Virus record (IMG/VR): IMGVR_UViG_3300029985_000036
Coordinates: 22,570 to 86,569 of that record
Strand: one strand, 5' to 3'
DNA: 64,000 bases
Source: a virus
The translations under genes and the position numbers were made by a program. The notes below the pieces were generated by a model, which searched no databases, was not told the origin of the DNA, and was given only the letters and a program-made list of their open reading frames with translations. Position 1 is the first letter of the stretch. Each line of letters opens with the position of its first letter. Below, one piece after another: positions 1,303-52,846 of this stretch.

Positions 1303-2553
1303 TTAAATTTTAGTTGAAAGAATAGTAATACCAATATCCGAAAGAGTTGCATCTTGTGACGCCGGTGCTACAAGTTGAAAGACATCTCCTGCAGCAAATG
1401 TTACTGCAGTAGTGCAAAAAAGAGTATTGGCCGTATGACTGCTGGCAGATAACAATATCCCAGCAATCGCAGTAGTTGTTCCACCTGAAATTTTATTAAT
1501 AACAAAAAGTGAAGATCCTGCTGAAACCACTCCTGCATATGAGAAAGTTCCGGTTAAACCAATAGGAATCGTTATTGCCATTCCCATAACAAGGTTATAT
1601 GTCTGAGCGGCATTAGGTTTTCCTTGAATAATAAACGATAGAGGAAAATCTAAAACCTCTGTAGGTAGCTCAGCATAAGTTAAAGTTTTATTAACCCAGT
1701 CAGTTCCGTTGTAAACCAATGCCTGATGATTGGTAGGTGAAGTAATAGCAGCATCTGTTGCACCGGAAATTGTGCTAGTGCCTGATGGTCCTTGAGGACC
1801 AACAACGTTACCAACATCGAAAATACCTGTAACAACTCCATTAACAGTTGCACTTAAAAGAAGATGTCCAGATACATTGATAGTAGCTCCAGTATAACCG
1901 TTACCGGTCAACCCAATTGAGCCATTCGTTCCATTAATACCATTTGTGCCATTGGTACCAACAACATTGCCCAAATCAATGGGACCAAGTGTAGAACCGC
2001 CAGCCGAGGTTGCTGTCAGTATCAGATGTCCTGATGAGTTGATCGTCGCACCACTGAACCCAGGTCCGATTAATCCGGTCTCACCGTTTGTTCCGTTGGT
2101 ACCGACAACTGCACCCAGATCAAGTGCTCCGACAACCGATCCAGCAATTGTCTGGGTTAAAAGAAGATGCCCTGATGAATTGATAGAGGCATCACTAAAT
2201 CCTGAACCACCGATTCCTGGGGACCCTGGCTCACCAATAACACTTCCGAGATCGTGGGTTCCCGCTGTACTAGTACCATCAACTCCAGTTAATACCAAGT
2301 GACCAGATGAGTTAATAACTGCGGCACTATAGCCAGGACCCGTGTCGCCAGTAATGGTTCCTGTAATAGAAACGGTGGTGTCATTGCTTAGATTAAAACT
2401 AAGTATTCCACCTGTTGAAATGCTTCCACCAACAATCGTTACCTGGGGTGGAATACCTAGATTGGAAATTGCGGCTGCTTGTGCCAAAGGACCAACGGCT
2501 GCAATTTCAGAAAAACAATTTTCAATAAGTAGGGGTTCATATCGTGCTGTCAT
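1303..2553 (-). CDS. Fibre-like adhesin with collagen-like linkers (paralog 1)
   Basis: 416 residues. Residues ~1-35 are closely similar to the start of the next gene to the right (both carry a YEPLL/FEPLL...EIAA.GP.AQ...NLGI pattern), so the two share an attachment domain. Residues ~80-265 contain four copies of a ~45-residue unit with core pattern G.GF/Y..A.INSSGHL.L...GG..G..DLG.VVG, separated by short Gly-x-y runs (GTNGTNGETG, GPQGPSG) like those in trimeric phage fibres. The C-terminal ~140 residues form a different, probably globular, domain. Likely a trimeric tail or head fibre or a receptor-binding protein. Ribosome site AGGATG precedes the ATG. Confidence 0.75.
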   Translation of the reverse strand: MTARYEPLLIENCFSEIAAVGPLAQAAAISNLGIPPQVTIVGGSISTGGILSFNLSNDTTVSITGTITGDTGPGYSAAVINSSGHLVLTGVDGTSTAGTHDLGSVIGEPGSPGIGGSGFSDASINSSGHLLLTQTIAGSVVGALDLGAVVGTNGTNGETGLIGPGFSGATINSSGHLILTATSAGGSTLGPIDLGNVVGTNGTNGINGTNGSIGLTGNGYTGATINVSGHLLLSATVNGVVTGIFDVGNVVGPQGPSGTSTISGATDAAITSPTNHQALVYNGTDWVNKTLTYAELPTEVLDFPLSFIIQGKPNAAQTYNLVMGMAITIPIGLTGTFSYAGVVSAGSSLFVINKISGGTTTAIAGILLSASSHTANTLFCTTAVTFAAGDVFQLVAPASQDATLSDIGITILSTKI

Positions 2554-2602
2554 GATGTTGCATCCTAGTTCTTATTATTCAATTACAGGTGCATACTACA
2601 CT

Positions 2603-4816
2603 TTATGCTGGGACAAAATTGACTGTCGGAACACTGGTGTATGTAATAGATACCTGATCTCCAGAAACGACATTAATCCCACCTGATGTCTGTCCAGTTG
2701 GTACAGCAGTTGTCCCACGTTTAATTGTGATTGATGTTACCGCGCCACCGTTTACAAAGAGGACACCACGCGCCAAGGCCGTATTAACATAAGGTGAACC
2801 TGAAGGCACAATGGTTACAATCGCGCCACCGGCTGTAGCTGCACCAGATGTGAGTACTGCATTACTGCCTACCGTGAGACTACCAACGATCGTAGCGTTA
2901 CCTGCGCCATCATCAAGTAAGTTTTCTGCACCCGATAGAATGTGGCCTTTGAGGCTAACCGAGAACGTGGTGGCCTGATTGAGCACTGGAATTTGTCCCC
3001 AGGTCACACCTGCGCTACCGACACTGGTGTTGAGGTAAAGTTGTGGGATAGATGGAATGCCCTGATTGGTGTTGATGTAAACTGAACCTGGATTGGCCGA
3101 TGAGGTCGGTATACCAACACCAGTCGTGATCGTAGGACCCCCAGTTCCTCCTACAATTATAGATGGTATCATAAAAATACCAGTGTTATCTATATACCAT
3201 TTTGCAGTTAATGCTGTAGCTGCAGAATAAATATCATAGGCAGCAGTTGCACTATCTTTAATAAAGATACCAGATTGAAAACGACCAGTGCCACCTGAAA
3301 TTTGTAACCCATATGTTACTTTATTTGATCCCGTGCTAACGGCAAGAAAAGATCCTTTTGATGTAGCAGACAGTTGAATACTATCATCTGTTCCCGTATT
3401 GTTAGTGACATCGGATTCAATTGCCACACCGTATCCCTGAGTACCTGACGGATAGATTAAGTTAGGATTAAGTCCATACAGAGTTGAAGTCATACTGTTG
3501 GCTAAACCAACAAAATAACCAGCACTAATACCATACGATGCATTTGTTGCATCGTTGCGTACTTGCACAAATAAAGCTTGGTTGTTGCCACCTATTCCAG
3601 TCGGTGCATTGATCGCTTGAATACCAATAAGAGTGTGGCCGGTTGAATCTGTAAATCGTTGTTGAAAACCAAATCCTACAGTTGTTCCAACGTATTGTGA
3701 TGAAATTCCAGGAAATGTATAAAGACTTGGCATTGAAAATGGGCCAAGTGCCAGAGATGCTACTTGTGATCCTTCATTAAGGACTCCACTAAAATTATAG
3801 CTACCTGGTGGAATGATATATGAAACGCCATATCCCATGGTTGCATTAAACGCCAGATCATCGTGTGCAATCCCATCACCAACCGCACCGTTGTCTTTAA
3901 CTGTTGGTAAGGTAGCAAATCGATCGGCAAGGGTACGAGGTGTTATCCCGTGCGTACTAACCACACTTCCACTTAGTGTCGTAAATGCACCAGATGATGG
4001 GGTAGTAGATCCAATCGGCGTGTTGTCGACAGTACCTCCGGTAATATTACTACTGGATGGTCCTGTTGGACCTTGAGGTCCAACCACACTTCCAAGATCT
4101 ACTGTTCCGGTTACTACTCCAGCTGTCACTTGTCCCAGAATCAAATGACCAAAACTGTTGACAGCAGCTGAAATGTAACCAGATCCCGGTGTCCCATTTG
4201 TTCCATTGGTACCAACAACATTACCCAGATCAGTTGTTCCAGTAACGGTACCACCAACAGCTGTATTGGTTACAATTAAGTGCCCCAATCCGTTGATCGT
4301 AGCACTACTGAACCCGGGTCCAACTTGACCTGTAGTGCCGGATGTACCAACAACATTTCCAAGATCAACAGTTCCACTAGTAATACCACCTACAGAAGTT
4401 GTTGTTACAATTAGGTGGCCTGAACTGTTGATACTAATATCACTAAATCCAGGACCCTGCTGTCCGGCAGATCCATTACTTCCTGGTGCGCCAACAACAT
4501 TACCGAGATCTGTTGTACCAGAAACAACACCAGCTGTCGTCTCAGTCAAAATTAAATGACCAGATGAGTTAATACTGGCTGCACTGAATCCTGGGCCAAT
4601 TTGTCCGGGAGCACCTATAATGTTACCTGTAACTGTAACTGTGGTTCCATTGCTCAACACCAGAGCAAGAGATCCAGTTGGCGTTATATGACTAGATTGA
4701 ATAACAATAGGTGTTCCAATGCCAAGATTGGTTTGTGCGGACAGTTGAGCGGCAGGGCCAGCTGCAGCAATTTCACCAAGACAATTTTCTGCAAGTAAGG
4801 GTTCAAATGTAATCAT
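2603..4816 (-). CDS. Fibre/tailspike-like protein with pectate-lyase-type segment (paralog 2)
   Basis: 737 residues, start with AAGGAAT upstream. It shares the N-terminal attachment block and four copies of the GHL..DLGNVVG repeat with the neighbouring 416-residue protein. After the repeats comes a segment around residues 310-345 with VKDNGAVGDG...IIPPGSYNF, the usual entry of right-handed beta-helix tailspikes of the pectate lyase 3 type. The rest is beta-rich and Gly/Ser/Thr-rich. Such proteins bind, and sometimes cut, surface polysaccharides; no catalytic residues can be assigned by eye. The pair looks like a duplication in which only the C-terminal receptor part diverged. Confidence 0.75.
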   Translation of the reverse strand: MITFEPLLAENCLGEIAAAGPAAQLSAQTNLGIGTPIVIQSSHITPTGSLALVLSNGTTVTVTGNIIGAPGQIGPGFSAASINSSGHLILTETTAGVVSGTTDLGNVVGAPGSNGSAGQQGPGFSDISINSSGHLIVTTTSVGGITSGTVDLGNVVGTSGTTGQVGPGFSSATINGLGHLIVTNTAVGGTVTGTTDLGNVVGTNGTNGTPGSGYISAAVNSFGHLILGQVTAGVVTGTVDLGSVVGPQGPTGPSSSNITGGTVDNTPIGSTTPSSGAFTTLSGSVVSTHGITPRTLADRFATLPTVKDNGAVGDGIAHDDLAFNATMGYGVSYIIPPGSYNFSGVLNEGSQVASLALGPFSMPSLYTFPGISSQYVGTTVGFGFQQRFTDSTGHTLIGIQAINAPTGIGGNNQALFVQVRNDATNASYGISAGYFVGLANSMTSTLYGLNPNLIYPSGTQGYGVAIESDVTNNTGTDDSIQLSATSKGSFLAVSTGSNKVTYGLQISGGTGRFQSGIFIKDSATAAYDIYSAATALTAKWYIDNTGIFMIPSIIVGGTGGPTITTGVGIPTSSANPGSVYINTNQGIPSIPQLYLNTSVGSAGVTWGQIPVLNQATTFSVSLKGHILSGAENLLDDGAGNATIVGSLTVGSNAVLTSGAATAGGAIVTIVPSGSPYVNTALARGVLFVNGGAVTSITIKRGTTAVPTGQTSGGINVVSGDQVSITYTSVPTVNFVPA

Positions 4817-4894
4817 TTTATCAGATTCCTTCTATATCGGATCCTCATAAAATGATAAAGTTAATCATCATGTAAACAAAATTATAGAAGAAGA

Positions 4895-4927
4895 AGAAGG
4901 AGAGGGGACATAGTCCCCTCTCCTTCT
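4895..4927. terminator. Long GC-rich hairpin terminator
   Basis: 15-base perfect arms with a 3-base loop between the Pro/Thr-rich gene (minus) and the fibre gene upstream of it on the same strand. It probably separates the two units. Confidence 0.6.
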
Positions 4928-4944
4928 CTTTCAATGAGTATTTA

Positions 4945-5691
4945 TTAAACAGTTGGCTTCTGAAGATTCACAATCCGTGCCTGTTCCTGCAGGAACATTA
5001 CAAGTGGGGCACACTTCAAACGGGACTGCAAAATATCTGGACGGATCTTTGAAGCATCTCCGATGTCTACACCATTCACGGCATGGCGAAACAGGGTATA
5101 GACAATCTCAGTGCGAAATCGAGATTGCATATCAAGTGCTGCAATCCCCTGAAGTGCAGCACCTTCCTGCATTACATCATTTTTGTGTTTAACAAAGAAG
5201 TCCCAGACTACCTGAAATACTTCAGGCGTTGGTGTTGCCAACAGACGAGCAACGATGTTGCCAAGCGTTTTTGCGGCATCTGAGAAATCTGCTTTTGCTC
5301 CACCACGACTGGTCAGATATCCTCTGTAGTTATCAAGCAACTCAACCAGGATACTCACCGCCTGAGACACAGGAGCTGTCGTAGGAGCCGGTGTTGGTTC
5401 GACAACAGGTGCTTCAGTGGAAACCGGCTCGACCACTGGAGCAGTGGTGGGTGCTGGGGTAGGAGCTGGAGTGGGCGCGAGGGTGGGAACGGGAGTTGTG
5501 GTAGGAGCAGGAGTCTGTATTACTGGAGCATCGGTGGGGGCAGGAGTAGGCGCTAGCGTAGGTGCCGGAGTCGGAGCAGGCGTTACCACAACGGGGGCTA
5601 CCGTAGGTTCCGGAGTTGGTATAACTGTAGGAACTGGAGCATCCGTCAGCACTGGTGTCGGATCGACCGGCGTAGATGGTTGGTCACTCAT
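4945..5691 (-). CDS. Protein with long Pro/Thr/Ala repeat tract and helical C-terminal domain
   Basis: 248 residues from the ATG at 5691, chosen because AAGGAAAA lies just upstream; the open frame extends 12 codons further without a ribosome site. Residues ~5-115 are a low-complexity tract of repeats such as [10 protein letters not shown] and PVVEP, typical of an extended, flexible linker or a surface-exposed stalk. Residues ~118-248 are a compact, mostly helical domain ([21 protein letters not shown] and following). No family recognised. The domain order, linker then globular C-terminus, suggests a tethered virion or scaffold component, which is inference. Confidence 0.7.
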
Positions 5692-5791
5692 TATAGTTTT
5701 CCTTGTACTGTATAGATTAAAACACAAAGATCCCGCAGGGCACGGTCATATCATGGTAGATTGTCGATATTCTTAATTAAAAAATCTACCT

Positions 5792-7147
5792 TTATATTGC
5801 AAATCTATTTAACGAGGTAATCTCAATCGATTTCGCTAAATTGAAATGCTTTGACTTTAATGCTGTTTTGGTGAAAACGCTGGTAACCGCCACCGAGACC
5901 ATCGTAATCATTTCTTGATCAATCGATCTAAACAATTCTCCCATGCAGGTAAAACAGTACCCTGCCTGTGTATGGCAATAGAGAGGCGACCGCATTTGTA
6001 CCGTCTGTCCAATATACTCAGTAATGTTATTAGCATCTAAGGTAATCAGTTTTCCATTAATCAAGATGTTGCGATAATAATAGTTTTTTGCCATATCTTT
6101 TGTCAGATTGACATGAAGATATTTAGTACTGCCACAATCATCACAGATAATCTTAGTATTTTGAAAAACACGAATGATGAATTTGGTTTCTTCACCACCC
6201 TTGGCCGTTTGAACCGCACTGGCAAAAGATCCGCGACGGATTTCATTACAGATGACTGGGAAGTCTTTAACTTTCCACCCTTCTTCAAGAGAGGTACCGA
6301 TGAAGTTAAACCCCTTGCCACCAAACTCTGGAATCATACCACCAGAAATGAGCATCATCTTACGATGAATGGAATAGGATTTATCATCTCTGTCATAAAA
6401 CAAAGTACTGACATCGCCTTTTAAGGAGGCTTTATCCATGGCAGTTAATTCAGTCTCAATTTGATTCATGACAATAGCATTACCAGCAGCAAGTTCTACG
6501 GCATGCTCTTTGAGAAGTTCATTTCGCCGTTTGATAATTTTAGGATCTACTGTAAGAGATCGTTCGGTTAAACTAGGAACAGACAATTCTGTGAAGTGTC
6601 CGATAAAATGAAGATTCCGAGAATAATGTTTAAGATTTTCAACACTGATCTTACCAGTACGAAGATTCTCAAAGATAAAGTTGTCTTCAATGCGCTGAAT
6701 ATCCCAAGTGGTATTGATATATGGAATAAGATCACCAAAGGAATCAGCTAAGATAGCATAGTTAAGAAGAAGTCGACCAATCGTTGTTTCTAGCTCGACA
6801 TCACCAGTATAGTTGATGATATCTTTAGGCTGTAGCATAATTTTACTGTTACGCTGACAGAGCTGTGGTGCAGTCTCAATACCAAGAGGAACCACTGTTA
6901 GCTCACGGTCTCCTTTATTGGAATAAATACCATCAACTCCAGTTACACTGTAGAGCTGATTGTTAATATTTAACAATTTCCCAGTATATATCCAGCACTG
7001 ATCATTGGGAATTGCATGACCCTCTACTGTTAAATGAGCTGTTGTCTTTTCAGTTTCAGTAAACAGATCAAGAAGCTGATCCCGAATAAGAAGAGCTGGG
7101 AGATTGTCCAGTATGTGTCGAAGAATCTGTGGAGCAAGTGTGTTCAT
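5792..7147 (-). CDS. RNA polymerase beta-prime, C-terminal-side segment (bridge helix and second zinc site)
   Basis: 451 residues. Residues ~265-430 follow bacterial beta-prime: a bridge-helix region (SFASAVQTAKGGEETKFIIRVFQN), then Cys335-x2-Cys338 (DDCGST, as EDCGT in E. coli), then MRSPLYCHTQAGYCFTC with Cys391, Cys398 and Cys401 forming the second zinc site, and finally QEMITMVSVAVTSVFTKTALKSKH, equivalent to the stretch ending in the trigger helix. The chain stops soon after, so the trigger loop remainder and jaw/C-terminus must be on another polypeptide outside the window. Split beta-prime chains are known in phiKZ-type polymerases. Residues 1-260 are less conserved. The neighbour upstream overlaps its start (ATGA), so the two are translationally coupled. 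Confidence 0.88.
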   Translation of the reverse strand: MNTLAPQILRHILDNLPALLIRDQLLDLFTETEKTTAHLTVEGHAIPNDQCWIYTGKLLNINNQLYSVTGVDGIYSNKGDRELTVVPLGIETAPQLCQRNSKIMLQPKDIINYTGDVELETTIGRLLLNYAILADSFGDLIPYINTTWDIQRIEDNFIFENLRTGKISVENLKHYSRNLHFIGHFTELSVPSLTERSLTVDPKIIKRRNELLKEHAVELAAGNAIVMNQIETELTAMDKASLKGDVSTLFYDRDDKSYSIHRKMMLISGGMIPEFGGKGFNFIGTSLEEGWKVKDFPVICNEIRRGSFASAVQTAKGGEETKFIIRVFQNTKIICDDCGSTKYLHVNLTKDMAKNYYYRNILINGKLITLDANNITEYIGQTVQMRSPLYCHTQAGYCFTCMGELFRSIDQEMITMVSVAVTSVFTKTALKSKHFNLAKSIEITSLNRFAI

Positions 7148-8187
7148 TTATAAAACTCCCGTGCCAATTCAAGACATCTTCCCGTAATGAATAACTGAAG
7201 AGAAGTGTCATCTGTTGTAAGCAGATCTTTGAGACGCTGAAATGTTGCATCTACATTAGCTGTAAAACTTTCTTTTGTAGAATCTTCTTTCATACATCCC
7301 AGCATCAGAGACAAGATATCTGCCTGAGATAAATATGTTCCACGCAGTCGAAAATACTCTTCATACAGAGGAGTATTTGATTCAAACTCACGGGTAAATC
7401 TAATGACAAGAGCTTGTTCAACCGGATTGATAGATTCGGTCGGGGATTGCTGTTGTTGAAACATCCAAGCATAATTTGCTAATGTATCTGCAGTTGTTGC
7501 ATTGTTTTTATAAATACTAAGTCGATTATATTGCAATTGAATGTCTGCATGCAATCCCGTATAACTTGAATTTGCATATGTATAATCAACTGCTTTCAAT
7601 AACCAACTTGTATGTTTTTGTACATAATCAAGATATGATTGTAACATTTCTGAATCAACGGGGGCTTCAAATGGAATAGTGTCAGTTGCAAGAATTGACA
7701 ATACATAAGCATCAAACACTGGGGTTGATGTCAGTTTGTCGTGTAAAAATACATAGGTATCATAAAACGTATTATTGACATCTGGATAATCTAGTGCAAG
7801 ATACTCCAGTATATTCTGAATAGTAGTATTGTCAGGATCCCCACCTCCATCCTGTACTGTAGCCGTTATCCAGAGTTTAAATCCCTCGGTTTCAGAAATA
7901 CTCCGATACAATGGAGTTGGATATACAGCTTCAAATAACAGCAGTGTCAAATCAAGATGATACATATTGTCACATAAATCAGATCTTGCACAAAAGAACT
8001 CTAAGCCAATTTCATAAGACTCATCGATAAGAACAGAAAAGCATTCAAGAACCAAAGTTTGAGATGATATTTCATCTTCACTAATCTGTTGCTGCCAGAG
8101 TTCACCACCCAAATGAGCTCGTACTCCAGGAGAAACCGAGGCCATGCGTTCAAGAAGTGATGCATGTAGAGTCATGCTAATATCCAT
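7144..8187 (-). CDS. Unknown protein coupled to RNAP beta-prime segment
   Basis: 347 residues, acidic, mostly helical, with no recognised motif. Its stop codon overlaps the start of the beta-prime segment downstream, so it is made from the same message. The start at 8187 has no clear ribosome site; an ATG four codons later has GGAT upstream and is an alternative. By context it could be a polymerase accessory subunit, but nothing in the sequence shows this. Confidence 0.6.
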   Translation of the reverse strand: MDISMTLHASLLERMASVSPGVRAHLGGELWQQQISEDEISSQTLVLECFSVLIDESYEIGLEFFCARSDLCDNMYHLDLTLLLFEAVYPTPLYRSISETEGFKLWITATVQDGGGDPDNTTIQNILEYLALDYPDVNNTFYDTYVFLHDKLTSTPVFDAYVLSILATDTIPFEAPVDSEMLQSYLDYVQKHTSWLLKAVDYTYANSSYTGLHADIQLQYNRLSIYKNNATTADTLANYAWMFQQQQSPTESINPVEQALVIRFTREFESNTPLYEEYFRLRGTYLSQADILSLMLGCMKEDSTKESFTANVDATFQRLKDLLTTDDTSLQLFITGRCLELAREFYK

Positions 8188-8214
8188 TTCATGGGTTATC
8201 TAGGTATCTAGAAG

Positions 8215-8244
8215 ATGGTACTTGTCCGATCGGACAAGTACCAT
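8215..8244. terminator. Perfect 30-base palindrome, probable terminator
   Basis: Self-complementary palindrome between the 347-residue gene and the small membrane gene upstream of it on the minus strand. Confidence 0.6.
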
Positions 8245-8260
8245 CGACTTCGATTTATCG

Positions 8261-8626
8261 TCATTTGGTACTAATCATCAAACAGATCAATTCAACATCC
8301 TCTGTGTATTCAAACACACGGAGGTAATACCCAATTGTTATCAAACATGTACCAATTTTGAGTGATGTTAATATGGTGTTTTGAAAACTATAAGCAATCA
8401 ATACTCCACAAGCTGCAGAAAGTATACTATTCAATATCCCTGTAGCCACCATTAAGACGCGATGGACTCGAAACACAATGGTGCAGTCGGTAGCAGACAA
8501 GACATATTTCAATACCATAACTGTCTGCTTAGAATCAAAATAACTGTAATCTGGTGAGATTTGATAATGCCGAAAGAACCAAATCAATGTGCCAATGCAG
8601 AGTCGATGGCACCGGGCAAGAAACAT
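8261..8626 (-). CDS. Small membrane protein
   Basis: 121 residues with two hydrophobic stretches in the second half (around VATGILNSILSAACGVLIAY and IGTCLITIGYYL), so probably two membrane passes. The open frame overlaps the 3' end of the DNA polymerase gene by 43 bases. An internal ATG at 8518 would remove the overlap and give 85 residues that keep both membrane segments; neither start has a strong ribosome site. Function unknown. Confidence 0.5.
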   Translation of the reverse strand: MFLARCHRLCIGTLIWFFRHYQISPDYSYFDSKQTVMVLKYVLSATDCTIVFRVHRVLMVATGILNSILSAACGVLIAYSFQNTILTSLKIGTCLITIGYYLRVFEYTEDVELICLMISTK

Positions 8627-37989: not shown

Positions 37990-38478
37990 GTGCCTGTAAC
38001 CGTAACAAAAATCTTATCCTCTACAGAGTTTTTAGCTCTTAATAATGACGCAATGGCAAAAGGATATTATAATACAGATCCTCGAATCTTTACGCCGGGT
38101 ATGGCCTGGGAAGAAGATTGGATCTATGATCCTTTTGGTGTTCGTAAGGTAGCTGGTGGACACGTTATGATAAAATCTCCAACTGCCCCCAACAAAGAGT
38201 ATCTATCCATCCACTATTGGAAGGATTGGGCTCACATTAGACCACCCATCACAGTCGTGTGTCCTAACGGTGCCCACTGGGGTTGGGATCACAAATCTAG
38301 TAATGGTGATGGCTGGATTGTTACCAGTACAAACTCAGTGTTTTCATGTCACCCTTCCATTGTGGTTCCAGGATATCATGGATGGTTTAAGAATGGAACC
38401 TTTTCATCTGACCTAGAAGGTCGGGGTCCTACCGGTATTTCTAAACCTCTTCCAGAAGGATTGTTACCATGCAAGTAG
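37990..38478 (+). CDS. Small protein coupled to RNAP beta-prime
   Basis: 162 residues starting at a GTG (GGAG lies about 11 bases before). The second half has a Trp/His/Cys-rich pattern (CPNGAHWGWDH, CHPSIVV, YHGWFKNG) that recalls small DUF6527-type domains; this resemblance is from memory and weak. Its 3' end overlaps the start of the RNAP beta-prime gene by ten bases, so the two are translated together. Confidence 0.55.
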   Translation: MPVTVTKILSSTEFLALNNDAMAKGYYNTDPRIFTPGMAWEEDWIYDPFGVRKVAGGHVMIKSPTAPNKEYLSIHYWKDWAHIRPPITVVCPNGAHWGWDHKSSNGDGWIVTSTNSVFSCHPSIVVPGYHGWFKNGTFSSDLEGRGPTGISKPLPEGLLPCK

Positions 38479-39953
38479 ACGCTCCATTTAATGTAAAGCT
38501 TTTGGATGTTAATGCCTACATTCGATCTTGGTTTGTACATCCTGTTGTCGATCTTTCTTTTTATGCCCCCTCCTCAGGGAATGCCTTCTCTCAAACAGGA
38601 TTATTCTCAGAAACCATCTTTGGCACTCTGGGTTCAACAGAACGCATGGTAACCTTTGGTTATATTGCACTGAATACATCCGTTCTTCAGCCACTGATCT
38701 ACAAGAATCTCATTAAACTTGCAGCGCTTTATGAAGAGATTATAACGGGTAATGCATATGCCCGATTCAATGATGAGACACATGATTTTGTGCGATGTCC
38801 AGATCCTGAAAAGTTTAATGATGCAGGTACTGGATATACCTTCTTTATGAATCGGTTTAATGACATTCAATTTGCACGAAATGATTCAAGAATCAGATCT
38901 GATCGAATTGATATCATTGAGAAATTCCGAGACATTCTATTTTGTGATAAATTCTTGGTACTCCCTGCAGGTCTTCGTGATCTTGCAGAAGATCAAGGTG
39001 CTGTTACAACAGATGATATCAACAAACTTTATCAAACATTGTTGTCCTATAGTTTTGCTCTTCCTCCTCATTCCAATAGTACAATCTATGATGGAGTACG
39101 AACTTCTATTCAAAAGAAAGTCGTAGAAATATATGATTATATTGAAAATATTTTAACAGGTAAAAAGGGCTTTATTCAGGGGGTTTGGGGACACCGACAT
39201 GTAGCTCTTGGTACCCGGAATGTGATCACTGCAGCTTCATATGCGACCATGACGCCCAATGACCCACAGACCCTTCAACCAGATGAAACCAAGCTCGGAT
39301 TGTTTCAGACAGCAAAGGCTTTACAACCCATTGTTGTTCATCATATCAGAACCAGTTTCTTAGCACCAGTATTTGGAGAAGGCTCCAATCTGGTTCCTCT
39401 TACAGATCCAAAAACATATGAACTTGCCTATCGATCTCTCAGTAATAAAGAACTATCAAGATTTGATAATCCAGAGGCCATTGAAGATTGGATCTCTCGA
39501 TTTCAAAATGTTGATATCAGAAATCAACCCGTCACCATTTATGATGTCGAAGGTAAACCTTTTTATCTTTTAATGGTTTATGATGAGGGTGACGAGATCG
39601 CTCTCTTTCGAAGTCTGAATGAATTTCAGAATGTATTTCTTCGTGAAATTGATCATTCTAAAATTCGTCCCTTAACTTGGGCTGAGTTGATCTACATGGC
39701 TGCTTATAATGCATCTAATGGAAAACATGTATTCATCACACGGTATCCCGTTATTCAAGATGAATCTTGTTATCCGACGAAGATTCATCTGAGTTCTACT
39801 CAACCGGCTCGTGTTGTCAGGTTGATGAACACAGTTATTGATCAGGTTGTTTATACCTATCCTGAATATCCAATTCTGGGAAGACCCTTCCTCGATAGTA
39901 TCCAATTGGCGACATCTCGGCTAAGTGGTCTGGATGCAGACTACGATGGAGAT
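38469..39953 (+). CDS. RNA polymerase beta-prime, N-terminal part, exon 1
   Basis: Starts with AGAAGGA upstream of the ATG. Residues ~40-75 (GLFSETIFGTLGSTERMVTFGYI) match the phage beta-prime N-terminus, and the exon ends with DADYDGD, the catalytic NADFDGD motif, with Asp491, Asp493 and Asp495 holding the active-site magnesium. Unspliced translation continues through TTYCFLTENP to a stop at 39989. Joining to 41781 restores DYDGDTVSANAMLSDEAN, the expected continuation, and gives a 547-residue chain. The exact junction could be 39953 or 39959; both keep the frame, but the first gives the usual spacing. The rest of beta-prime is on other genes, one at 5792-7147. Confidence 0.88.
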
Positions 39954-41780
39954 TCAACTACTTATTGTTTTCTGACAGAAAACCCATAGCAATTCCTACA
40001 TAGTCACTTGCTTATGGACTTTTTAATTCTGACACTATATTATAGAATTTAAAAGAGTAACTATAATGTCAGAAGAAGAGTTTGTAAAAATTCCTCATTT
40101 TTCTAGATACTCCATTTCAAAAAATGGAACTGTCATAGAAGATGTAAAACACCAAATTGTTGTACCGACATACAACAGATATGGACTTCCAATCGTTGCC
40201 CTAAAAAATGAACGCAATAATTTGTGCAATATGTCTATTGCCAAACTTGTATTACTTACTTACAACCCACTTGTAAATAATAATTATCCTTATGTAACTA
40301 TTTCATATGTAGATAAAAATATAAAAAATATTGTCTTAGACAATCTTGAATGGAATTTTGTCATATATAAACCTCAATTTATTCCAGGTATTAATATACG
40401 AAATGATGAATTTGTAACTGTTTATGGAACAACAGATTACATGATTAATGCATTTGGTATTCTACTTAATAAAAAAGGTAAACAACTAACGGGACACACT
40501 GATAGCAGTGGGTATATTAAAACAGAAATTGATGGTGCCGGAACTACAAGTATCCATCGATTAGTTGCGCTTACATTTTTAGAACATCCGATTGATACAA
40601 CTGATCTGATTATAAATCACAAAGATGGAAACACCAGTAATAACTATTATAAAAATCTTGAATGGTGTAGTTATACCAATAACATTGATCATGCGTATGA
40701 TAACAAAATGAGAAGTCAAAATATTCCGATTTTAGCTATGGATATTGAAACTCGTGAGATTGTGAGTCATTATAGTTTACGTGATTTTTGTTATAATGTT
40801 GAGATTCCCCACATTGCGATTTGGTGGAGGTTGCGAAATAATAGAAATATAACTCCGTATCATGGATTTTATATCAAATATACTACAGATTTAAGGCCGT
40901 GGCCTAAAAAAGATGGTGTTGTCAATGTGTATGAAAAGAAAAAAATATTAATTAAAAATATGTCAAGTGGAGATGTAACTATTTTCACAAGCTATAATGA
41001 AATAACACGACAATATAAATTTCAAAAGAATTCTATTTTATATCAACTGAATAAACCAGAGCCGGAACCATATCACGGACTTCTTATTAAATTTGAAAAT
41101 GATAAACCTTGGCCACTATACAGCGAACAAGATCTTCATAAATATTCACTTAAAAAAATGCCACAGAGTAAGCCCATTTCAGTCTATAATACACAAACTC
41201 AAGAAACAAAAACCTATGAGGGAATTCGAGAGTTTTGTCGAGACATTAACTATAAAGCTGAGATGTTTATACGAGAAAAAGTCAAATCAAACAAACCCTT
41301 TAAACACTATGAAATAAATTATCTGTAACAATAGCGATTATGTCGGTAATCCTTATTGTAAATTGTTAATATGTTCCTGTCAGAAACAATAGTATACAGT
41401 CCATCTTGATGGTAACATCAAGAATGAATTCCCTTTAATTGTCTGGAATCTCCTGTTAAACTACATCGCTACAACGTGATCCCAAAGGATGTACGTGAAT
41501 GCTTGAAAAGATGTAGGTAGGGACAACCAGCAGCGAAGTTCTTCCGAAGCGTCGTGATGACGGATTGGGTGGAAACCGTTCAACGATCAGAGCCTTTCCA
41601 GCTTGTAGAGCCCCAGTGGGGCAGAAACGGGGGACATCCTATTCTCTGTCAATGAGAGGACAAAAGGTAGGATGAAGATATGATCTGCCCCGTGCGGTAA
41701 CGTACGGCAGGTGTCTGTGCACACCGGGTTGATAGAGAAGTATCTCTTTCGAGAGATACCACGGATCAACTGGACAAGGG
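39954..41780 (+). ncRNA. Group I intron in the RNAP beta-prime catalytic motif
   Basis: The interrupted catalytic motif and the downstream exon show that ~1.83 kb must be removed. The RNA has group I core elements: a P-like AATTGTCTGGAA (41437-41448), an R-like GTTCAACGATCAGAGCC (41578-41594) and an S-like AAGATATGATC (41675-41685), with GATCA and TGATC able to form P7. The bases 39964-39978 pair with 41377-41390 (15/14 bases, one bulge), closing off the endonuclease gene as a peripheral loop. A stem-loop (41741-41760 region) sits where P9 is expected and the intron ends in G. Boundaries are uncertain by about six bases on the left. Confidence 0.88.
40066..41328 (+). CDS. Intron-encoded HNH homing endonuclease
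   Basis: 420 residues; the ATG lies after AAAGAGTAA. NUMOD-like N-terminal repeats (PHFSRYSISKNG) lead to an HNH core near residues 160-215: IHRLVALTFLEHP, INHKDGNTSNNYYKNLEW and the C-terminal NNIDHAYDN, with His and Asn residues of the metal site. A second half has repeats of the type PITVYNTQTQE/YEGIREFCRD often seen in DNA-binding NUMOD domains. More A/T-rich and lysine/asparagine-rich than the neighbouring phage genes, consistent with independent arrival. It would cut an intron-less copy of the RNAP gene. Confidence 0.88.
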   Translation: MSEEEFVKIPHFSRYSISKNGTVIEDVKHQIVVPTYNRYGLPIVALKNERNNLCNMSIAKLVLLTYNPLVNNNYPYVTISYVDKNIKNIVLDNLEWNFVIYKPQFIPGINIRNDEFVTVYGTTDYMINAFGILLNKKGKQLTGHTDSSGYIKTEIDGAGTTSIHRLVALTFLEHPIDTTDLIINHKDGNTSNNYYKNLEWCSYTNNIDHAYDNKMRSQNIPILAMDIETREIVSHYSLRDFCYNVEIPHIAIWWRLRNNRNITPYHGFYIKYTTDLRPWPKKDGVVNVYEKKKILIKNMSSGDVTIFTSYNEITRQYKFQKNSILYQLNKPEPEPYHGLLIKFENDKPWPLYSEQDLHKYSLKKMPQSKPISVYNTQTQETKTYEGIREFCRDINYKAEMFIREKVKSNKPFKHYEINYL

Positions 41781-44528: not shown

Positions 44529-44584
44529 GGCACAACTCACTTACGTGTGAATAGATTTAGATACTTTGCTTTGTATCTTCATTG

Positions 44585-44621
44585 TAGTGATATATATCTG
44601 AAATAGAATGAAACGCTGTTT
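44585..44621 (-). promoter_or_regulatory. Early-type promoter motif
   Basis: Minus strand: GCGTTTCATTCTATTTCAGATATATATCAC, a full match of both blocks of the consensus. Confidence 0.75.
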
Positions 44622-44652
44622 AATATTCAAATAAAAAAATAAAGAAACTTCG

Positions 44653-44685
44653 ATCCAGAGTCTTCCTTTGGGGAAGACTCTGGAT
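44653..44685 (-). terminator. Hairpin terminator ending the large RNA region
   Basis: 14-base perfect arms, 5-base loop; on the minus strand followed by TTTCTTTATTTTTTTATTT. It would stop transcripts from the gene-free region to its right. Confidence 0.8.
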
Positions 44686-45979
44686 GTACTATAGTTCCGA
44701 CGCTGTGCTCATGACCGTCCTGCTGACTTACCGTAATCGATACCAGAACGGATCCTAAGATCTCGTACTATTGGTGTATGATTATCGACGTCCTGGACGT
44801 GTGTCACCTTTTGGTATTGTCGGATAGGTGTGGGTGGTGTTGAGACCTCGTGAGGATCCCATCTCTGCTAGCTATTTGTGAAGCACTGGCATCCCATATT
44901 GCTTCTACAGACTCCAATTTATGGCTTCTGTACAGCCAGAGGCTCCTGTAGTCTGCAATTGGGCATTCACAAAACTCCTTTAGACGCTAGTGCGAGCTCC
45001 CCTCGCACGATTTTCGGCCATGTCATTACACTGCTTCCTCTGGTTATTTCTAATACAATGGGACGACAATAGTGGCGTGACTAATACCACTTTATCGACG
45101 GTATCAGACCACATTAAAGGTCCGATAAGTCTCAACAGCTTATGCGCCTACGTGTGTTCGTGCACGGGTGGTTCATCCGCTGTGTAACAAGCATCTCTCA
45201 ATCATGCATTCATGTTCACAACTGGGTGTGAATTATACATGTACACGAAGATCTGAATACTTGGGGTTGAGTTGAGACCAATGTGGTTCACCCGACATAC
45301 AAGCTTGTATGTTTCGCTCTTACCAAGGAGCTCATCAGGGGTGGAAAATCTATGGATGCAGGTGTACGAACAATGCCCGCAAGGCCTGCATCCATAGTTG
45401 CGCGGGTCCACAACTAGCTGTGGCAAAGGTGGCAGCGCCGGTGCCCCACAACCCCACGATCAACAAAGTTAGTTAACTTTGTTGCAGATAGCTATCGTAA
45501 CCCATCTCATGTATTGTGAGATGGGTTACGATAAGTCGCACCTTTCGATCAGTACAAACTAGCAATGTTTGGTTCTGCAGAACCAAACACAGACGCTGGA
45601 CCGATGGGGAGAATACAAGCGACCAAATTGTAGACATCCGACACACGTAGAGTGTGTTTCGACCTATAAGGTCTCATCAGGGATGTTGTAGCAAAGTTGA
45701 CTTAGAGAATCAAACGGAAATATTTGTAGAGACTAGACTACCATATTCTCCAATTTGTTGTGACCCTAGTAAATGAATAGTGCAACCTATCAATAGATAA
45801 AACAAAGGGGCACCAGTGTTCTACTATGTACACGATTCAAACCAGGGACAAATCAGAGACGATCATCTACTCCACCCGAAGAGTCCATCCAGACAATACC
45901 GATGGGGGTCTTTTCCGTGTCACGTGTTCTCGACAGGACTTGCGTCCCTTGATTCTCTAAGTCAACTCTAAAGAAAGCA

Positions 45980-46071
45980 GATCCTTTCTCAACTTTCGGA
46001 TCTATTATCAACCAGCATGCGGTACAATAACAATTAGAGTTTCATTATTGTGCTGAGACATATTGACAGGG
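45980..46071 (-). repeat. Structured RNA module, copy 1
   Basis: Plus-strand view: a five-base-pair stem GATCC/GGATC (45980-45984, 45998-46002) around a 13-base conserved loop TTTCTCAACTTTC, then ATCAACCAGCATGCGG, and a CAGCA/TGCTG helix, closing with GCTGAGACATATTGACAGG. Shares this layout with copies 2 and 3. Confidence 0.75.
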
Positions 46072-46133
46072 TCACTTACCTAATACCAAAGCTCCAACAC
46101 ATCAATAGGTGATAATATTTTTGTTATAGAAGT

Positions 46134-46260
46134 GGCCCTTTCTCAACCTTCGGGTCCTCATCAACCAGCATGCGGTATAACTTACTCAGGGTTACAGTCT
46201 ATCCCAACAGCCAAGAAGGAACAACTGTAATTGATTATGAGGGTTATGCTGAGACATATC
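46134..46260 (-). repeat. Structured RNA module, copy 2
   Basis: Stem GGCCC/GGGTC (46134-46138, 46152-46156) around TTTCTCAACCTTC. Compared with copy 1 the second and third pairs change from A-U to G-U and U-A to C-G, preserving pairing. ATCAACCAGCAT then pairs with ATGCTG at 46246-46251. Ends in GCTGAGACATATC. Confidence 0.75.
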
Positions 46261-46342
46261 ATGCGCGTACAGACTAATTCTGAACGCTCAATGACAGGTT
46301 GCTGTCTAACTAAACTCTTTGTAATTGTTCCTCTAAAGGAAC

Positions 46343-46428
46343 GATCCTTTCTCAACTTTCGGATCTTCGTTAATCAGCATGCGCTACATTACTGCGGGGC
46401 AGAGATTGTGCTGAGACATGTCAACAGG
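46343..46428 (-). repeat. Structured RNA module, copy 3
   Basis: Stem GATCC/GGATC (46343-46347, 46361-46365) around TTTCTCAACTTTC, preceded by a separate GTTCC/GGAAC hairpin (46327-46342). CAGCA at 46375-46379 pairs with TGCTG at 46409-46413. Ends in GCTGAGACATGTCAACAGG. Confidence 0.75.
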
Positions 46429-46551
46429 GGAGAATCCATTGACAGATTAACGATACACTCATTTTCCACATAGAATAATTCTAGTGGGTGATTTGTTACT
46501 CCAACATCTATAAATTACAGATGTCTTTGTATATCTCATAATTGTAATATA

Positions 46552-46577
46552 TATCTGAATATGGATGAACTTTATCC
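46552..46577 (-). promoter_or_regulatory. Early-type promoter motif before the large RNA region
   Basis: Minus strand: AGTTCATCCATATTCAGATATATATTACAA. Both blocks of the consensus are present. The only sequence it can drive is the gene-free region to its left. Confidence 0.7.
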
Positions 46578-46599
46578 ATATAATTATTAAAAGGTTCTT

Positions 46600-46980
46600 T
46601 TATTTTGCAGACCAAAGGATTTCATTAAATTCGTCAGTGGACACATTATGACATTGAACCAACGTGGCTTTTATTTCTGCCAAAGTTACTTTTCCAACAC
46701 CACCATTATCTCGAATACCATCTCGTATGAGATCTCCAACGGTATATCCATCAAAACGTGATGCTGGAATTACCAGTTTAAGTGACCACCGAGTACGATG
46801 TGTAAGTGATCCTGTGCCAATAAAATCCTTTAATAACATACTGCGGATATCGGCTGGAATTATATGTGTATTTTCCAGATACTTTTGGACACGTCGATAT
46901 CTGAGAACAATCGATTTTATCGTAGTCCCTGCTCGATTAAAGTATCGACCTGCTTCTATAGGTATGTCCCGCATCGACAT
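46600..46980 (-). CDS. Small hypothetical protein
   Basis: 126 residues, basic, helical, with Arg-rich N-terminal half (RRVQKYLENTH, TRWSLKLVI). Its start lies inside the gene ending at 46937, in a different frame (44-base overlap), so translation is likely coupled. No family recognised; a nucleic-acid-binding role fits the charge but is not shown. Confidence 0.55.
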   Translation of the reverse strand: MSMRDIPIEAGRYFNRAGTTIKSIVLRYRRVQKYLENTHIIPADIRSMLLKDFIGTGSLTHRTRWSLKLVIPASRFDGYTVGDLIRDGIRDNGGVGKVTLAEIKATLVQCHNVSTDEFNEILWSAK

Positions 46981-47423: not shown

Positions 47424-47757
47424 GTTGAAACTGGGTCATAAGAAAACATCATCTGGAGTTATTGGTATCTCATATCATTTAAATAATATATCTATTTATT
47501 GAGATTTCAAAATCTGCGGGACGTAAGATGTTATCTCATCCCATCTTCCATTTATGATTTTTCGGATTCTATAGGATGGTATCTAGTAAACTAATTAATT
47601 ACTTACTTCTTATTTTTCTAATTTCATTTTTTTATTTATAAAAAAATTCCGTCTTTACTTATATAAGTTATTTTTTCTTCTTAAGTAAAAAATAACTTAT
47701 AGTAGATATTTTATACTTTAACACTTACGTCAGATATGAGTTTACCAGATCCCTCTT
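47424..47757. other. AT-rich gene-free stretch
   Basis: A 334-base low-complexity region with long T and A runs. A weak copy of the early promoter core (AGATATATTATTTAAATG, minus) lies at 47481-47505, and AT-rich 12-base arms (47665-47676/47687-47698) can form a hairpin. I see no gene in it. Confidence 0.5.
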
Positions 47758-47804
47758 CTTCTTCTAGAAGGGGTCGGGTGGAGCCCGACCCCTTCTAGAA
47801 GAAG
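47758..47804 (-). terminator. Very long hairpin (21-base arms)
   Basis: Perfect 21-base arms with a 5-base loop. It lies in a gene-poor stretch, about 60 bases left of a second palindrome. It may end a short RNA rather than a gene. Confidence 0.6.
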
Positions 47805-47863
47805 TATATAATCTATCGTCTATATAAGGGCATTGTAAAATAAAAAATAACACAGGAAGATAG

Positions 47864-47897
47864 AGATAGGCACTGGGATTAATCCCAGTGCCTATCT
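47864..47897 (-). terminator. Perfect 34-base palindrome followed by T-run
   Basis: Directly after the gene ending at 47910 on the minus strand, followed there by TTATTTTTTATTTTAC. Confidence 0.7.
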
Positions 47898-47909
47898 ATA
47901 GGTTACTCA

Positions 47910-48200
47910 TCAAGTTCTAATGGTTGGAATGATCTCAAAGGTACCAGGTCGTTGTTCAGCAATAGTCAACTCTGATTGCATGATGGACACAGTCCATACT
48001 GCGGTTGCATATTCACAAAAATGGGTGGTAAACCTATTCACTTGGGTTTGAAAAGAGTCAGTAACTATCTTTTCAGCCAGAGAGTAAAGCATTTCAGTAG
48101 AATGACTACCAATCATTCCCTCTGTAATCTCAACTGCACAAGTGGCAGATACAACTGGGTCATGATTACCCAGCTTACGAGTTAAAACACCAACGTACAT
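47910..48200 (-). CDS. Small hypothetical protein
   Basis: 96 residues; AAGGAATAG before the ATG. Compact mixed fold, no motif. Last gene of a long early unit running from 50.9 to 47.9 kb. Confidence 0.65.
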   Translation of the reverse strand: MYVGVLTRKLGNHDPVVSATCAVEITEGMIGSHSTEMLYSLAEKIVTDSFQTQVNRFTTHFCEYATAVWTVSIMQSELTIAEQRPGTFEIIPTIRT

Positions 48201-52728: not shown

Positions 52729-52798
52729 CGAGTTGTTGGAATCGGACCAACGACGATATGACGCAATGCATATGTTTTACCAACTAAACTAAACTCTG
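52728..52798 (-). tRNA. Solitary tRNA-like RNA
   Basis: Minus strand of 71 bases folds as a tRNA: D-stem GTTT/AAAC with loop AGTTGGTA, anticodon stem ATATG/CATAT, T-stem GTTGG/CCAAC with loop TCCGATT. The acceptor has only five good pairs of seven (GAGTT/AACTC). The anticodon loop has eight bases (CATTGCGT) instead of seven; if one base is extra, the anticodon would read TGC (Ala), but the usual Ala G3-U70 pair is absent. No CCA is encoded. It has its own early promoter and terminator. Either a degenerate tRNA or a tRNA mimic. Confidence 0.65.
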
Positions 52799-52803
52799 AT
52801 TTC

Positions 52804-52846
52804 AAATAAGTAATATATATCTGAATCTGGATGAAACGCAGTGTTA
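52804..52846 (-). promoter_or_regulatory. Early-type promoter motif for the tRNA-like RNA
   Basis: Minus strand: CTGCGTTTCATCCAGATTCAGATATATATTACTTATT. Best match of all copies to the consensus. Confidence 0.8.

Follow-up and report, generated by a model that had tools for sequence, protein, structure and literature searches.

A gene-free early transcription unit with two predicted tandem hammerhead ribozymes in a phiKZ-like jumbo phage

What kind of RNA, if any, does a jumbo phage make from nearly 2 kb of DNA that carries no gene and begins at an early promoter? The region lies on the minus strand of the window analysed here, a 64-kb piece of an 86.6-kb IMG/VR record that is itself partial. 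An initial annotation had described it as a large, structured, non-coding RNA made early in infection, and the absence of a coding signal, the fold z-scores, and the promoter context support this description, whereas its covariation argument failed and the idea of a single intact RNA is probably wrong. The sequence gives good support to an early transcription unit that is structured, lacks genes, and contains two hammerhead ribozymes (HHRs) in tandem.

Genome setting and extent of the unit

The record contains a piece of an RNA polymerase (RNAP) beta subunit (phrog_2986) with 32-36% identity to four phiKZ-group phages, and further proteins with matches to PHROGs or to named phages include a DNA polymerase (phrog_2927) and a GroEL-like protein; these protein matches place the source among the phiKZ-like jumbo phages, as a divergent member. 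The nearest relatives found share about 50% RNAP identity, and searches with the single proteins encoded at 38469-39986 and 46603-46980 found no close relatives. A homing-endonuclease-like gene of the HNH/NUMOD1 type (40066-41328, plus strand) directly follows the RNA polymerase piece, which ends at 39989, and this arrangement suggests an intron within the polymerase gene near 40066-41328. Additionally, the closest relative (record G002, locus L113, positions 2000-7000) has a gene-poor island with six tRNAs, a possible place for large non-coding RNAs.

Open reading frames (ORFs) of at least 90 aa are absent over 2,059 nt (44541-46599), with the minus-strand unit inside this interval, and comparison with Pfam and PHROGs returned no match for the ORFs inside the unit in any frame, in agreement with the 1.86 kb originally reported to lack a credible gene. 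The hexamer coding scores of ORFs inside the unit were mostly near zero, with one antisense 35-aa frame as the sole exception, while the small early genes nearby scored 18-68 bits. The surrounding genome is less tightly packed than had been stated, since three further gaps of 800-960 nt lie nearby.

At the start of the unit, TATATTAC at 46551-46544 corresponds to a phiKZ-type early promoter. The minus strand of the window has five copies of the motif core, ATATATTAC, and the plus strand none, and the motif agrees with the published predicted promoters of phiKZ (TATATTAC) and 201phi2-1 (PMC7058600), so that both the count and the published match back the early promoter motif noticed at first. 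Two variants of the motif precede the next units, at 44594 and 42935, and because the next promoter-like motif starts at 44594, the region is probably transcribed alone, as a separate transcription unit. The opposite boundary had been called a strong terminator; its 14-bp hairpin exists, but the U-run begins about 10 nt past the stem (44685-44653) and a consensus terminator scan does not accept the hairpin, which makes the 3' end less certain. Elsewhere in the early region, a back-to-back pair of strong hairpins lies between small early genes (47750-47910, minus strand; z of about -6 to -7.6 in 250-nt windows), probably representing terminators, and an early promoter motif at 52817 is followed, after about 20 nt, by a tRNA-like gene (52730-52796, minus strand; 35 bits with Rfam, missed by ARAGORN). 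The features of the unit are collected in Table 1.

Table 1. Features of the unit, in window coordinates
Feature	Position	Strand	Basis
phiKZ-type early promoter motif TTCAGATATATATTAC	46544..46559	-	Motif count and match to published promoters
Predicted primary transcript, ~1.88 kb, non-coding	44650..46535	-	Start inferred from promoter position; ORF, coding-score, and fold evidence
Predicted 5' product, ~896 nt; comprises modules 1-3 and closed domain, with HH1 core 3'-terminal	45640..46535	-	Fold z -8.9 (20 shuffles)
Repeat module 1	46341..46421	-	Repeat search, alignment; 92.0 bits, member of covariance model
Repeat module 2, longer insert; A.C mismatch in loop stem	46132..46259	-	Alignment, covariance model
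Repeat module 3	45978..46063	-	Alignment, covariance model
273-nt domain closed by 19-bp perfect helix (arms 45967-45949, 45713-45695)	45695..45967	-	z -6.9
HH1, type-I hammerhead; predicted cut after GUC between 45640 and 45639	45634..45686	-	Rfam RF00163, strict finder
346-nt RNA freed by two predicted cuts (5'-OH, 2',3'-cyclic phosphate)	45294..45639	-	z -6.5, 0/100 shuffles as stable
17-bp perfect hairpin within 346-nt RNA	45493..45533	-	Inverted-repeat list, ensemble folding
13-bp hairpin within 346-nt RNA	45350..45397	-	Inverted-repeat list
HH2, type-I hammerhead; predicted cut after GUC between 45294 and 45293	45289..45343	-	Rfam RF02275, strict finder
Predicted 3' product, ~644 nt	44650..45293	-	Fold z -5.3 (20 shuffles)
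GGUCUCAAC, perfect complement of loop heptamer GUUGAGA	45271..45279	-	Motif search
Second GGUCUCAAC	44839..44847	-	Motif search
14-bp hairpin then U-rich tail, likely 3' end	44653..44685	-	Inverted-repeat list; not in consensus terminator scan

Hammerhead cores and predicted cleavage products

At the Rfam gathering score, no family matched within the unit. The covariance models of GOLLD, ROOL, OLE, and HEARO, the families against which the initial annotation had proposed to check the region, gave no match even at E<=10, and the same was true of the group I and group II introns, but the permissive scan revealed two HHRs that had been overlooked. These appear only with permissive thresholds and both lie below the curated cut-offs: HH1 scored 29.0 bits against RF00163 (gathering cut-off 34), with an E value of 1.6e-4 over all 4227 Rfam families and of 1.6e-6 when RF00163 alone was compared with the whole record, and HH2 scored 19.4 bits against RF02275 (gathering cut-off 52; E 0.15 over all Rfam families). 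Such a cut-off is a limit on the score and does not itself define a hammerhead. A resemblance of ACGGAAAAGACCCC and AGUACGAGA to 23S rRNA was also considered and rejected, as the best score with E. coli 23S/16S, 21.1 bits, was below the median of 22.6 for shuffled sequence.

Both ribozymes are of type I and are arranged in tandem on the RNA (minus) strand, 342 nt apart. Each carries the full core, CUGAUGA-stem II-GAAA-stem III-GUC-stem I, with the invariant CUGANGA...GAAA and an NUH cleavage triplet, in a three-helix junction whose stems II and III are closed by loops and whose stem I is open; the finder assigned stems of 6/5/6 bp to HH1 and of 5/4/10 bp to HH2. With a strict definition (exact core; stems I, II, and III of at least 4, 3, and 4 bp), HH1 and HH2 were the only cores on either strand of the window. 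A scan of 2.46 Mb, for the most part from related jumbo phages, added a single site, and among 12,000 dinucleotide-shuffled versions of the region 8 contained a core. When the full-length RNA is folded as an ensemble, the formation probability is about 0.7-1 for stems II and III of each HHR and about 0.5-0.77 for stem I. Read by eye, UGGU in loop II of HH2 could base-pair with an ACCA that lies immediately past stem I, and comparable pseudoknots have been described for natural hammerheads (PMC3088659); for HH1, no clear contact between stem I and loop II was seen. On this evidence, HH1 and HH2 should cleave in cis after GUC. Self-cleavage in vitro has been reported for tandem HHRs of bacterial and prophage origin, and the Agrobacterium arrangements were active in E. 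coli as well (PMC3088659).

Since two hammerheads should cut the transcript into three, three pieces are the likely outcome and the picture of a single intact 1.8-kb RNA is probably wrong. The long-range helix between 45695-45713 and 45949-45967 that had been reported was recovered as a perfect inverted repeat with a pairing probability of about 1 in the full-length ensemble, and the domain that it closes ends 9 nt before HH1; the several hairpins noted at the outset were likewise found by the inverted-repeat search. Each of the three predicted products is much more stably folded than shuffled sequence (Table 1). In 250-nt windows, coding stretches elsewhere averaged z-scores of about -1.3 (minus strand) and -1.0 (plus strand), and the lowest values were near -4.6, so that some of the folding excess is general. 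The 346-nt RNA and the 250-nt window 45375-45624 (z -6.8) fold outside the range of the coding stretches.

The best reading of these features is that a giant RNA is processed to yield stable, mature parts. We estimate a probability of roughly two in three that the phage makes an early non-coding RNA of about 1.9 kb that is cut in cis by its two HHRs into functional mature pieces. The RNA would be transcribed from its own early promoter, and cleavage after GUC at 45640/45639 and 45294/45293 would release a 5' RNA of about 896 nt, a compact RNA of 346 nt, and a 3' piece of about 640 nt. The 5'-OH and 2',3'-cyclic phosphate ends may protect the pieces from nucleases, since such ends are expected on general grounds to slow any decay that depends on a 5'-monophosphate or on an unblocked 3'-OH. 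The processed RNAs would probably be what functions early in infection.

The same geometry could serve a small RNA, with the flanks as leader and trailer and the 346-nt segment as payload, which would be released in linear form or closed into a circle by a host ligase. The excision geometry is exact, two ribozymes are precisely what is required to free one segment, and the fold of the segment is compact and very stable; the flanks, however, are strongly folded too and hold repeats, and we consider this arrangement unlikely. For a circle in particular, the duplex left to stem I of HH2, formed with the newly created 5' end of the 346-nt RNA, would be weak (-2.0 vs -8.3 kcal/mol), and self-circularisation looks unlikely. 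No RtcB or RNA_ligase gene was found in the partial 86.6-kb record or in the eight relatives searched; hosts often encode RtcB.

Ribozyme-mediated splicing, in which the 346-nt segment is excised and HH1 re-ligates the flanks, draws on another pairing: after the cuts, the 5' stem-I arm of HH1 (CAUCC) can pair at 5/5 positions with the new end of the 3' piece (GGGUG) at -5.3 kcal/mol, compared with -6.5 kcal/mol for its own partner. Re-joining of the flanks by HH1 is thus conceivable, but the chimeric pairing comprises just 5 bp and the hammerhead equilibrium favours cleavage. Perreault et al. raised splicing or circles as a possibility for such ribozymes, and sought spliced or circular products but detected none (PMC3088659). 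Taken together, we judge splicing very improbable.

Repeat modules and possible contacts between the pieces

The three repeat modules described at the outset were recovered by realignment as a 41-nt repeat family with a 25-nt tail family. The claim that their stems covary failed: among the 13 module pairs, only pair 3 is compensatory (U-A to C-G), one is broken, and eleven are invariant, and 164 of 500 shuffles were as good. The broken pair is pair 2 of copy 2, whose stem reads GACCC/GGGCC on the RNA strand with an A.C mismatch; the G.T pair assumed earlier is invalid because G.T on the plus strand is A.C in the RNA. The CAGCA/TGCTG helix attributed to the modules was weak in energy folding, with probabilities of 0-0.46.

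The modules and the unit were without relatives in the collections searched. Searches of IMG/VR, 50 jumbo-phage records, named phages, and GTDB contigs gave no homologue of either, and the search of related jumbo phages proposed with the initial annotation returned none for the unit. The module pattern matched once in IMG/VR, inside a phage coding gene (L009), which was not accepted as a homologue, and did not occur in GTDB contigs. The covariance model recovered only the three known copies from 2.4 Mb of loci and the 50 phage records; an 18.6-bit match in the same record was discarded as it falls in a coding gene. Whole-unit blastn against 25 relatives gave only matches of 26-29 nt, judged to be chance, and no HHRs were found in the scanned parts of the nearest relatives, those with about 50% RNAP identity.

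On the RNA strand, there are four copies of the loop heptamer GUUGAGA (0.15 expected), two of UCUCAAC (0.15 expected), and three of UCUCAGC (0.08 expected), an excess that is partly the module repetition itself. The sequence GGTCTCAAC is present in the 64 kb only at 45271-45279 and 44847-44839. As a hypothesis, GUUGAGA may form kissing pairs with UCUCAAC or UCUCAGC. Within the processing model, these loops and strands recur in the outer pieces and may keep the pieces together or join copies by kissing. Kissing loops stabilise complexes of giant ornate RNAs (PMC12286853).

A more elaborate scheme would unite these elements in a maturation driven by ribozymes only, with the 346-nt RNA excised, the structured flanks rejoined by HH1 and assembled through GUUGAGA/UCUCAAC kissing. 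A single gene would then give both a spliced giant RNA and a small, stable one, thereby defining a new class of giant early phage RNA; we hold this to be decidedly improbable.

Comparison with phage hammerheads and large RNAs

Pattern scans with two stem-II variants retrieved at least 120 stretches each, and thus HHRs are common in phages. The comparison loci were chosen by core pattern and form a comparison set, not a random sample, in which the sense ORF covered a median of 80% across 69 distinct HHR-to-HHR segments shorter than about 750 nt and at least 60% in 57 of the 69. The IMG/VR segments look like single-gene cassettes, and HHRs flanking individual genes or short gene blocks have been reported by Perreault et al. 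2011 (PMC3088659). The 346-nt segment does not fit this type: its sense ORF covers 47%, a value that a few other segments match, and encodes 54 aa vs 55 aa on the antisense strand, which corresponds to noise level. The exact core, stem II, and loop of HH1 are also present in three other phage contigs, and in the two inspected they lie between ORFs. Arrays of hammerheads were observed as well: for example, the contig IMGVR_UViG_3300030382_001968 (L330) has twelve strict cores on one strand (2297-8544, plus), many of them separating single ORFs, and L146, L147, L196, L304, and L322 resemble it.

The abundance of such cassettes and the occurrence of the exact HH1 core at their sites leave room for ordinary punctuation, in which the pair is the relic of a cassette whose gene has decayed and the surroundings are degenerate spacer. 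We regard this as improbable, given that decay does not yield z-scores of -5 to -9 in three products, a 19-bp helix, and three repeats, and that the sense ORF does not exceed the antisense one in length. The unit shares with the tandem HHRs of phages and prophages a same-strand cluster on a phage transcript, but its ribozymes lie within a 2-kb gene-free folded region rather than flanking genes (PMC3088659). Its gene-free gap was the longest among the 273 HHR sites examined. The solo hammerhead of the related jumbo-phage record G042 (L125:3802, plus strand) is similar in being of type I, in its position in a gap of about 600 nt where no gene is clear, and in the related RNA polymerase of the phage, and differs in having a single ribozyme and no modules; other inverted repeats are present in this gap. 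Additionally, four phage contigs (L145, L163, L184, and L252) have in common a gap of 1,461 nt that contains no ORF of 90 aa and has a hammerhead near one edge, which could be another gene-poor HHR unit.

Two HHRs that bracket a non-coding segment of a few hundred nucleotides, within the size range of viroids, also recall retrozymes and viroid-like circular RNAs, and capture of such an element was considered. In contrast to those elements, the HHRs here are on one strand only, long terminal repeats are absent (the repeat common to HH1 and HH2 is 13 nt), the segment is present in a single copy in the record behind a separate promoter in a DNA phage, and its fold is branched, not rod-like, which together make capture scarcely credible.

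GOLLD and ROOL occur in phages and prophages, often near tRNA genes (PMC12286853), and the tRNA-like gene of our record lies about 6 kb from the unit. Like GOLLD, ROOL, and OLE, the unit would produce a large, highly structured RNA, but it is about twice as long and has no Rfam match to them at E<=10. The text of the giant-RNA paper (PMC12286853) does not mention hammerheads, and in the open-access literature we found no paper linking hammerheads to jumbo phages.

A giant early RNA with built-in ribozymes would connect the giant phage RNAs with the phage hammerheads. To our knowledge, neither GOLLD and ROOL nor phage hammerheads and their single-gene cassettes have a known function or purpose. 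If the processing model is true, some large structured RNAs would be precursors that carry RNA-coded cut sites, and the published lengths of large RNAs may need rechecking for ribozymes below Rfam cut-offs.
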